Shown here piece after piece: positions 8,172 through 14,106 of a DNA stretch of 33,128 nucleotides (positions within the stretch are counted from its first letter, which is position 1; every line of letters starts with the position of its first letter). A program made the position numbers and the translations under genes. The notes beneath the pieces are model-generated. The model searched no databases and was not told where the DNA came from. It worked only from the letters and a program-made list of their open reading frames with translations. The DNA is taken from positions 1-33,128 of the forward strand of contig JAKDMF010000003.1 in NCBI GenBank assembly GCA_030452455.1, written 5' to 3'. Origin of the DNA: a bacterium (GTDB taxonomy: Bacteria; Patescibacteriota; Saccharimonadia; Saccharimonadales; Saccharimonadaceae).

Positions 8172-8256
8172 TGGTACGGATGAAAGGACTTGAACCTTCA
8201 CGCCCGAGGGCACGTGCTCCTAAGGCACGCGTGTCTACCAATTCCACCACATCCGC
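8172..8256 (-). tRNA. tRNA-Leu(UAG), CCA encoded
   Basis: Minus strand GCGGATGTGGTGGAATTGGTAGACACGCGTGCCTTAGGAGCACGTGCCCTCGGGCGTGAAGGTTCAAGTCCTTTCATCCGTACCA; 7-nt anticodon loop CTTAGGA, class II variable arm, GGTTCAAGTCC T-loop, acceptor GCGGATG/CATCCGT. Confidence 0.95.
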
Positions 8257-11710: not shown

Positions 11711-12313
11711 ATGGATAAAAACGAAATAGGCGTCGGCCCGCACCCCGAACCCTGGCCGACTGATGAAAAATACGACAAAGACTTGCTCGAGGCTGGTGAT
11801 CGTCGAAACGTCGTCGACAAATACCGTTACTGGACGAACCAGGCAATAAAAGAGGATATGCAGTCGAGTAGCCATAAGCTTGAAGTTGCTATCGAGAATC
11901 ATCAGCACGATTTTAATATCGGCACCATCGTCCGCAATGCCAACGCCTTCAATGTTAGTAAAGTGCATATTATCGGTCGTCGTCAGTGGAACAAGCGTGG
12001 GGCGATGGTGACGAATCGTTACCTAGAGGTTGTTCATCATGAGTCGGTTGAAGGGTTTTGTGAGGCAATCGGTGCAAGCCGAGAAATAATCGCCATCGAC
12101 AATCAGCCCGGTGCCGAGAACTTGACAGATGTCGAATTGCCACCCAGCTGTGTCTTGGTGTTCGGTGGCGAGGGGCCCGGTCTTAGCCAGGAAATGATCG
12201 AGGCCAGCTCCAAGATGATTCAGATTGAGCAGTTTGGCAGTACGCGTTCGGTCAACGTTGGCGTGGCATCGGGTATAGTTATGTATCAGTGGCTGCGCGA
12301 GAATAGCCTTTAG
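11711..12313 (+). CDS. TrmH/SpoU-family RNA 2'-O-methyltransferase
   Basis: NIGTIVRNANAFNVSKVHIIG, CVLVFGGEGPGLSQEMI, RSVNVGVASGIVMYQWLR: the three SPOUT motifs. Confidence 0.88.
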   Translation: MDKNEIGVGPHPEPWPTDEKYDKDLLEAGDRRNVVDKYRYWTNQAIKEDMQSSSHKLEVAIENHQHDFNIGTIVRNANAFNVSKVHIIGRRQWNKRGAMVTNRYLEVVHHESVEGFCEAIGASREIIAIDNQPGAENLTDVELPPSCVLVFGGEGPGLSQEMIEASSKMIQIEQFGSTRSVNVGVASGIVMYQWLRENSL

Positions 12314-12445
12314 GAGGGGCCGTGCCACTCCGCGATTGTTTCAGGAGGGGCAGCCCCTCCGCTATCATTTTCGGAATGAATCCGAAAACTCACTCCACCC
12401 ACTGAAGCCGACGCGAGACGTCGGTGCTATCGCGATTATGATGTT
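12313..12445 (-). repeat. Structured repeat unit 0 (inverted relative to units A and B)
   Basis: Reverse complement reads ...CGGCTTCAGTGGGTGGAG-TGAG-TTTTCGGA-TTCAT-TCCGAAAA-TGATAGC-GGAGGGGCTGCCCCTCC..., co-linear with units A and B; distal GGAGGGGCCGTGCCACTCC at 12313-12331. Confidence 0.8.
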
Positions 12446-12469
12446 CTAGGGCGGACGTGTCAGCATGTC

Positions 12470-12598
12470 ACTCCTAGTGCAGCTACGCCGTTCGTGTCCA
12501 CACGAACACGAGGACCCGTCCGAGCGGATCTTAGATCCGAGGGTGGAGCGAAGTTTTTTAATTTACTTCAAAAACGAGCGGAGGGGCCGTGCCACTCC
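12470..12598 (+). repeat. Structured repeat unit A
   Basis: ACTCCTAGTG; hairpin GTTCGTG-TCCA-CACGAAC (12490-12507); GAGGGTGGAG; hairpin GTTTTT(T)AA-TTTAC-TT(C)AAAAAC (12553-12575); terminal GGAGGGGC-CGT-GCCACTCC (12580-12598). Confidence 0.85.
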
Positions 12599-12715
12599 TA
12601 GTGGTGAATCCCGTTCGTGTCCCCACGAACACGAGGCCCCGGCCGAGCTTCAGAGGGTGGAGACGATACCTCGAATTCATTTCGAGGTGAAATCGGAGGG
12701 GCCGTGCCCCTCCTA
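12594..12715 (+). repeat. Structured repeat unit B
   Basis: ACTCCTAGTG; hairpin GTTCGTG-TCCC-CACGAAC (12613-12630); GAGGGTGGAG; hairpin ACCTCGAA-TTCAT-TTCGAGGT (12668-12688); terminal GGAGGGGC-CGT-GCCCCTCC (12695-12713). Confidence 0.85.
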
Positions 12716-12768: not shown

Positions 12769-14106
12769 ATGAGTTCACTATCCCCACAGCCGTACAAAGG
12801 TACGCGAGACTACTACCCAACAGATAAGCGAATCCAAAATTATATTTTTAATGTTTGGCATCAGGTGTCCGAGCTATATGGCTATGAGGAGTATGGCGCC
12901 CCGATACTAGAGCTACTCGACGTCTACGCTGCGAAAAGCGGTCAAGACCTAGTCAATGACGAGACCTATAGTTTTACCGATCGCGGTGGCCGTCTAGTCG
13001 CTATTAGACCGGAAATGACGCCTAGCATATCGCGGATGGTGGCTGCTAAGCGTCAGGAACTTGGCTATCCAGCTCGTCTCTACAGCATAGCTAACTTTAT
13101 GCGCTACGAGCGCCCACAGCGGGGCCGCGAACGTGAATTCTGGCAGCTTAACGCCGACATCTTTGGGGTTGACGGTCCACGACCGGAGTCAGAAATAATC
13201 GCCCTAGTCAACGACATGATGAAGACATTTGGCGCAACTGATGAGATGTACGAAATCCGAGTCAATAATCGCAAACTAATTGACGCTATTATGACTAGCT
13301 ACTTGGGCCTCGACACGGTTGGCGCTCAGCTTATGGTCAAGCTGTTTGATAAAAAAAGCAAGATCTCGCACGAGGATTTTCGTGACAAAGCTATCGACAT
13401 ATTTGGCGCCGAGCAAGCTCCCGACGGCCTCAAGAAGATATCTAAACTGCTATCAATGACGTCCGTCAAAGATTTGCCTCAGGAGATTCGTGAAGATGAT
13501 GCCACTAAGGAGCTTCAGGCGCTATTTGAGCTACTAGGCGAGGCCGGAATCACTAGCGCTAGGTTTGACGTAACCTTAATGCGCGGACTCGACTACTATA
13601 CCGGTACAGTTTTTGAAATGTTTGATCTTCACCCTGAAAACAATCGATCAATGTTCGGTGGCGGACGCTACGACGGACTGGTCGGTCTATTTGGCGTCGA
13701 CCCAATCCCGACCGTCGGTGTCGCTCCAGGCTATACTACTGTCGAATTATTCCTTCGATCGCACGACTTACTGCCAGACTTCCCGTCATCGACTGAGGTC
13801 GGCATAGTTGTACTGGGTGGAGCTGATAGTGGCGCACTTGAGCTGGCTAAGGGTCTCCGCCGTGAGGGAGTTAAGACTGAGGTTGACATCACAAGCCGCA
13901 AGATCGATAAGCAGATCAAGTCTATTCTAAAAAAGAAAATTCCTTTCATGGTATTCGTCGGCGAAGACGAAGTTGATAGTGAGATTTATCCATTCAAAGA
14001 CACCGGCCTGGCCGAGGAACAGAAGCTTAGTTTTGAGCGAATTGTTAGTGTCGTCAAAGATCGCCGCCGCTCTAATGTTGGCGAATTTGACGATTTGTTT
14101 GAATAG
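12769..14106 (+). CDS. hisS: Histidyl-tRNA synthetase
   Basis: PYKGTRDYYP, FMRYERPQRGREREFWQLNADIFG (motif 2), GLDYYTGTVFEM, GGGRYDGLVGLFG (motif 3). Confidence 0.95.
   Translation: MSSLSPQPYKGTRDYYPTDKRIQNYIFNVWHQVSELYGYEEYGAPILELLDVYAAKSGQDLVNDETYSFTDRGGRLVAIRPEMTPSISRMVAAKRQELGYPARLYSIANFMRYERPQRGREREFWQLNADIFGVDGPRPESEIIALVNDMMKTFGATDEMYEIRVNNRKLIDAIMTSYLGLDTVGAQLMVKLFDKKSKISHEDFRDKAIDIFGAEQAPDGLKKISKLLSMTSVKDLPQEIREDDATKELQALFELLGEAGITSARFDVTLMRGLDYYTGTVFEMFDLHPENNRSMFGGGRYDGLVGLFGVDPIPTVGVAPGYTTVELFLRSHDLLPDFPSSTEVGIVVLGGADSGALELAKGLRREGVKTEVDITSRKIDKQIKSILKKKIPFMVFVGEDEVDSEIYPFKDTGLAEEQKLSFERIVSVVKDRRRSNVGEFDDLFE

Follow-up and report, generated by a model that had tools for sequence, protein, structure and literature searches.

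Results

The window, the whole 33,128-nt stretch of DNA analyzed here, comes from a genome of the Candidatus Saccharibacteria type (G000; 672,962 bases in 55 contigs, 85.6% complete). Between a trmH-like gene (11711-12313, with its TAG stop codon at 12311-12313) and hisS (12769-14106) lies an intergenic array that consists of one terminal-hairpin remnant, an inverted full unit (unit 0) and two further units (A and B). The motifs, coordinates and hairpins that the original prediction had assigned to three units are all present, and, as it had described, unit 0 lies on the minus strand while units A and B are arranged in tandem on the plus strand. The terminal box GGAGGGGCNGTGCCMCTCC is matched six times in the window (three sites, both strands) against 0.03 matches expected, and the whole 421 nt folds more stably than its shuffled versions (z -8.0 as RNA, z -10.0 as DNA).

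The remnant comprises the terminal hairpin only (GGAGGGG-CCGTG-CCACTCC, 12313..12331, plus strand), and the final base of the trmH TAG stop codon doubles as its first G. Unit 0 is a full element (12343..12425, minus strand, 54.8 bits with covariance model R1) with its 3' end towards trmH. On the minus strand it carries the hairpin P3 (GGAGGGG-CTG-CCCCTCC, 12344..12360), the hairpin P2 (TTTTCGGA-ATGAA-TCCGAAAA, 12368..12388, whose loop reads TTCAT on that strand), the predicted triplex third strand GGGTGGAG (12393..12400) and the hairpin P1 in a fully Watson-Crick form (CCGACG-TCTCG-CGTCGG, 12408..12424).

Unit A, on the plus strand, is preceded by an extra 5' hairpin that is present in copies of this genome (GTTCGTGT-CC-ACACGAAC, 12490..12507). 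Its core (12512..12599, 43.4 bits with R1) begins with P1 (GGAC-CC-GTCC, 12512..12521), for which other copies in the same genome have GGCC..GGCC, GGAT..ATCC, GGGC..GCCC or GGGT..ACCC, followed by another extra hairpin (CGGATC-TTA-GATCCG, 12525..12539) found at nine sites in the genome. The predicted third strand AGGGTGG (12540..12546), P2 with a TTTAC loop (GTTTTTTAA-TTTAC-TTCAAAAAC, 12553..12575) and P3 (GGAGGGGC-CGT-GCCACTCC, 12580..12598) complete the unit. Unit B, also on the plus strand, is again a full element (12630..12714, 76.6 bits with R1) with an extra 5' hairpin ahead of it (TTCGTGTCCCCACGAA, 12613..12628). It contains a P1 with tandem G.A/A.G mismatches (CGA-GGC..GCC-GAG, 12632..12647), the predicted third strand AGGGTGG (12654..12660), P2 with a TTCAT loop (ACCTCGAA-TTCAT-TTCGAGGT, 12668..12688) and P3 (GGAGGGGC-CGT-GCCCCTCC, 12695..12713). 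The module of about 120-130 nt originally proposed is correct as a spacing, but the core unit is only about 84 nt long, and the extra 5' hairpins fill the rest. The two extra hairpins (GTTCGTGT..ACACGAAC and CGGATC-TTA-GATCCG) are absent from most relatives, and the units that carry them form a local extended subtype. At the gathering threshold no Rfam family matches the element, in line with the original prediction, which did not recognize a named family in it; the sole match anywhere in the window is a tRNA gene at 8175-8256 on the minus strand.

Searching the source genome and its relatives showed that the array is part of a dispersed element and not a local oddity. A DNA search of the source genome first found eight loci, several of them at the ends of contigs, as would be expected where a repeat interrupts assembly. 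With R1, a covariance model built from 32 copies, 19 copies are found in this genome, and copies occur in 39 of 394 genomes of the same family, spread over 14 of its 61 genera. Copy number ranges from 0 to 20 per genome, and the element is also present in two further families of the same order. An exact 18-mer scan for the conserved box across 84,980 species returned 60 stretches, and those with the full structure all come from Saccharibacteria, CPR or taxonomically unlabelled metagenome-assembled genomes (MAGs); the named relatives that carry the element are Saccharibacteria MAGs. The same scan found no true copy outside Saccharibacteria: the 30-odd matches there lack the hairpins and are attributable to chance, about 30 being expected by our own arithmetic, and one of them, L118, proved to be a regular-expression false positive. 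A phage or virus origin was also considered and rejected, as an exact-box scan of viral contigs gave two matches, both without the structure. A literature search, with most subscription journals outside its reach, found no report of palindromic elements in Saccharibacteria.

In about 147 copies, three hairpins covary within a core of about 84 nt that has sharp ends (5' (C/A)ACGAG ... CTCCT 3'). P1 is a stem of 3-6 bp that tandem G.A/A.G mismatches often close; other copies have Watson-Crick pairs in their place. Between P1 and P2 come CTTYA and the purine box GGGGGWGGAG; P2 has 7-9 bp, and P3 has the form GGAGGGG-N2..6-CCCCTCC. The near-constant TTCAT-type loop claimed for P2 is indeed conserved, but its consensus is TTYAY in most of 127 distinct copies rather than TTCAT alone. 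The stem covariation first read from three copies holds over 113 distinct rows, in which 86.9% of cells are paired (70.9% shuffled) and double changes affect every one of the 21 pairs (14.8 in shuffles). The covariation score of 0.410 stands against 0.150 in shuffles, none of 500 shuffles scoring as high, and against 0.05-0.11 in slid controls, which bears out the selection on structure that had been proposed. Neither outcome named beforehand as fatal to the original prediction, a lack of further copies or a loss of covariation once more of them were aligned, came about. Because the alignment had been fitted to the model, P2 was recounted with the loop as the only anchor; without the covariance model its outer positions still pair at 0.75-0.97, compared with 0.40-0.59 when the arms are re-dealt. 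At one locus (L298, G099:C35) an internal deletion has joined the third strand directly to the P3 pyrimidine strand (GGGGGAGGGG-TTTA-CCCCTCC), leaving a remnant that resembles the one at the trmH stop codon in the window.

The original prediction did not assign a role to the conserved box GGGTGGAG (GGGGWGG), which mirrors GGAGGGG, the purine strand of P3. In the antiparallel purine motif, G lies over G-C pairs and A or T over A-T pairs (PMC4666352), and the box changes alongside P3 by this code. GGGTGGG is found over GGGAGGG (L071, L076, L195, L196), GGGATGG or GGGTTGG over GGAAGGG (L061, L228, L234), GGTGAGG over GGAGAGG (L084), GAGGAGG over GGAGGAG (L252), GGGGAGA and GGGGTGT over AGAGGGG (L166, L186), and AGGATGGG over GGGAAGGA (L249). 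Across 99 unique combinations, the third strand has A 69, T 58, G 12 and C 4 times over A-T pairs, and G 484, A 31, T 12 and C 4 times over G-C pairs. Third-strand fit is thus about 90%, not 100%. Among non-canonical copies the fit to the code is 0.897, compared with 0.791 in shuffles (sd 0.012; best of 2000 shuffles 0.827; z 8.9); these shuffles leave the relatedness among copies in place, yet the variants are drawn from separate genera and are unlike one another. The mirror register (z 8.6) exceeds the direct register (z 4.9); a direct repeat would have implied an alternative hairpin. With the register fixed, the third strand has A or T in 6 of 7 cases when P3 position 1 is A, against 8 of 108 otherwise (p=7e-6), and in 11 of 15 cases when position 4 is A, against 8 of 100 otherwise (p=1.1e-7); position 5 gives a weak signal (p=0.019), and positions 2, 6 and 7 taken alone give none that is significant.

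The mirror box and its code-following changes lead us to predict a class I intrastrand DNA triplex, with the P2 hairpin as linker. Read from sequence variation, third-strand covariation provides evolutionary evidence that the putative DNA triplex, and not a mere sequence potential, is under selection. The G-rich boxes could instead form a G-quadruplex, as GGGGWGG and GGAGGGG together supply four G-tracts and mirror matching that counts G only is significant too (z 8.3). This ambiguity has also arisen in E. coli, where NMR decided the matter for the triplex (Holder et al. 2015; PMC4666352). We regard a quadruplex as quite improbable here. It too would call for aligned G-tracts, but it would need no pyrimidine strand in P3, yet that strand covaries with the purine strand (97.8% of cells paired); it would have no need of A/T-only positions; and broken tracts (GGTGAGG/GGAGAGG) still match. 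In addition, T occurs over 58 of 143 A-T pairs but over only 12 of 531 G-C pairs, as the T.A-T rule has it.

The two ends of the element differ in their surroundings. Among 128 non-coding copies, 16 have a tRNA 7-14 nt from the 3' end, and only one or two have a tRNA that close to the 5' end. The copies beside tRNAs (e.g. L061, L062, L084, L200, L239) occur on both flanks of the tRNA and nearly always point their 3' end at it. A convergent stop codon lies flush (-5 to +11 nt) with 29 of 56 3' ends, compared with 9 of 65 5' ends (p=1e-5), and a 6-nt patch just past the 3' end is AT-rich (72% vs about 51%). A TATAAT-like sequence (one mismatch) occurs at the 3' flank of 22 of the 128 copies, against 6-9 further downstream and 13-15 on the 5' side, an excess that the AT-rich patch explains at least in part; an extended -10 promoter at this flank was rejected since TGnTATAAT shows no excess. 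The array had also been likened to a MITE. Both hallmarks were looked for and neither was found: the ends ACGAG.. and ..CTCCT do not pair as terminal inverted repeats, and the best k-mer excess for a target-site duplication is at noise level.

Relatives of the array are also read through within housekeeping genes, a feature beyond the original prediction. Eighteen of the 147 copies sit in conserved open reading frames of seven genes and are read through in frame in either orientation: in sense in TopA (two copies), RecJ (one), GltX (three), Der (one) and PcrA/UvrD (five), and in antisense in MutM (four) and MnmA (two, one of them in the source genome). The sequence is poor in stop codons and adds about 28-30 residues, with the recurrent sense peptide ARGxSRALGGGxE...EAEGQAPP. 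One genome (G016) carries the element in both topA and recJ with the frames intact, and these two inserts are 72% identical. Compared with solved structures, the inserts fall at short loops of the homologs: after GHYA in MnmA, between residues 242 and 247 in GltX (T. maritima numbering), between residues 82 and 93 in MutM and between 550 and 554 in TopA. In PcrA, most orthologs lack the insert; the site is empty in more than 25 of them, reading RLxxLLxQxxxxR.FMPWMGTFH, whereas in carriers the protein is 25-35 residues longer there and the added stretch ends in EGQAPPR, with two genomes keeping remnants only. In all five PcrA copies the frame requires CTTCAG, where the common CTTTAG would give a stop codon.

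Six changes are needed to place the six carriers on the tree of pcrA flanks, which is no improvement on shuffled labels; this scatter reflects repeated gain or repeated loss. The copies might be old vertical insertions that are only lost, without present mobility, and are homogenized by gene conversion. Sites in pcrA, mutM, gltX and mnmA are shared across genera, remnants exist, and the scattered presence in pcrA could also reflect repeated loss. We nevertheless find this history unlikely, given that carriers scatter among non-carriers, that members of one genus can differ even when closely related (g18, g16, g24) and that copy number per genome runs from 0 to 20.

Another explanation is a structured RNA conserved at the RNA level, such as a 3'/5' UTR regulatory element, an attenuator or a terminator. 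Most copies lie in transcribed positions, whether past stop codons, before tRNAs or within mRNAs, and P3 is a strong hairpin from the gene side. Stem mismatches are G.T rather than A.C at about 2:1 in absolute counts, which hints mildly at some role for RNA folding as well. However, the element occurs in both orientations relative to the transcript, including the interiors of open reading frames, no U-run follows P3, the only Rfam match in the window is one tRNA, and there is no tie to a single gene family or pathway. Moreover, purine-motif triplexes have a general preference for DNA. The multi-domain ncRNA of the original prediction is disfavored by the third-strand code, which is a DNA purine-motif one, and by copies that occur both ways round within coding frames and beside tRNAs, and we consider conservation at the RNA level improbable.

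Mobilization by a RAYT (TnpA_REP, Y1_Tnp), as in a REP/REPIN system, would suit dispersed palindromes that lack target-site duplications and have a GGAG box ahead of a hairpin. Y1 genes are indeed more common in carriers (16 of 39 genomes vs 38 of 355, p=6e-6), a difference that is confounded by clade. However, a search for Y1_Tnp gave no match in the source genome, whose assembly is 85.6% complete, and, across the 394 family genomes, none in 23 of the 39 carriers. None of the 20 Y1 loci in carriers has an element alongside, as judged by an unfiltered covariance-model search and a mirror-hairpin scan. The unit also departs from the REP type (a GTAG/CGTC tag and a length of 20-50 nt): it is about 84 nt long with three hairpins and many intragenic copies, and has no GTAG, the nearest being GGAG before P2. 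Membership of a RAYT/REP system therefore failed on Y1 presence, Y1 adjacency, tag and unit size, and the REP/BIME-like reading with a RAYT, as originally put forward, is improbable as well. No transposase was linked to the element, and no movement was observed. Many RAYT-like Y1_Tnp genes of about 200 aa, mostly partial Pfam matches, occur in Saccharibacteria (G016, G164, G177, the g36 genomes and others).

Discussion

We consider it likely that the array between trmH and hisS is made up of three complete copies, and a fourth partial one, of a non-autonomous, dispersed Saccharibacteria element that folds into a triplex and is probably mobilized as single-stranded DNA (ssDNA). In our proposed mechanism, the top strand would be exposed as a single strand during replication or in transcription bubbles and would fold into P1, the purine third strand, P2 with its TTYAY loop, and P3. 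P2 would turn the third strand antiparallel into the major groove of P3, giving an R.R-Y class I intrastrand triplex, which we infer forms in vivo and in DNA rather than RNA. An enzyme encoded elsewhere in the host would presumably recognize this fold and copy or transfer the element as ssDNA, with the 3' end joined beside genes, at AT-rich sites that open readily. The copies seen today would then be the harmless insertions that survived: in exposed loops of proteins, flush past stop codons, or between a promoter and a tRNA. We suggest more tentatively, as a possibility that is still doubtful, that the element represents a class of mobile DNA recognized by an ssDNA triplex under selection, which carries no enzyme and has repeatedly colonized the same housekeeping-protein loops in frame.

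The element resembles the Rickettsia palindromic elements (RPE) in being palindromic, dispersed, both intergenic and intragenic, and about 85-150 nt in size (Ogata 2000, 2002; PMC10969869; PMC3767692). Both insert in frame in conserved genes, with a recurrent peptide and at the same sites in several species, and neither has been linked to a mobilizing enzyme. In contrast to RPE, the present element belongs to the Saccharibacteria phylum, enters genes in frame in both orientations, and has a fixed three-hairpin architecture with a TTYAY loop and a predicted triplex third strand; the likeness is one of coding habit.

TM-ECO, an E. coli/cyanobacterial repeat (Holder et al. 2015), is likewise a dispersed single-strand purine-motif triplex and follows the same code of G.G-C, A.A-T and T.A-T (PMC4666352). 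Its triplex has been physically demonstrated (PMC4666352), whereas ours is predicted from sequence. TM-ECO is class II, 37 nt long, with loops of 1-6 nt, and always intergenic (PMC4666352); the Saccharibacteria element is predicted to be class I, with a 20-35-nt hairpin linker (P2, about 22-35 nt with its flanks) plus another hairpin, and is often intragenic. The published triplex search was limited to 1-6-nt loops and would thus miss it. By analogy, the element appears to combine two known kinds, an RPE-like coding habit and a TM-ECO-like fold, in another phylum.

With REP/REPIN sequences and their RAYT it shares dispersed extragenic palindromes, inverted and tandem arrangement, and the lack of target-site duplications (PMC8266576, PMC3116915). 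It differs from them in having no GTAG tag, no linked RAYT, a bigger multi-hairpin unit and intragenic copies. The subterminal hairpins of IS200/IS605 elements, for which an ssDNA hairpin mechanism is known, and the MITEs derived from them offer a further parallel: no terminal inverted repeats, no target-site duplication and hairpins in ssDNA. However, no TnpA/TnpB-bearing parent was found for the present element, and it has no pair of hairpins at its two ends.

In-frame 'selfish' palindromes in essential genes were formerly described as a peculiarity of Rickettsiales. An independent case in Saccharibacteria, which are also host-dependent and have reduced genomes, allows the phenomenon to be compared and tested, and the third-strand covariation yields a direct biophysical prediction. 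Annotated Saccharibacterial proteins contain such peptide insertions unnoticed. The pcrA/uvrD loop (TNKAA.EM to FMPWMGTFH; L287-L301) also holds unrelated insertions of 10-60 residues in other genera, unmatched by R1, and may be a general insertion hotspot.
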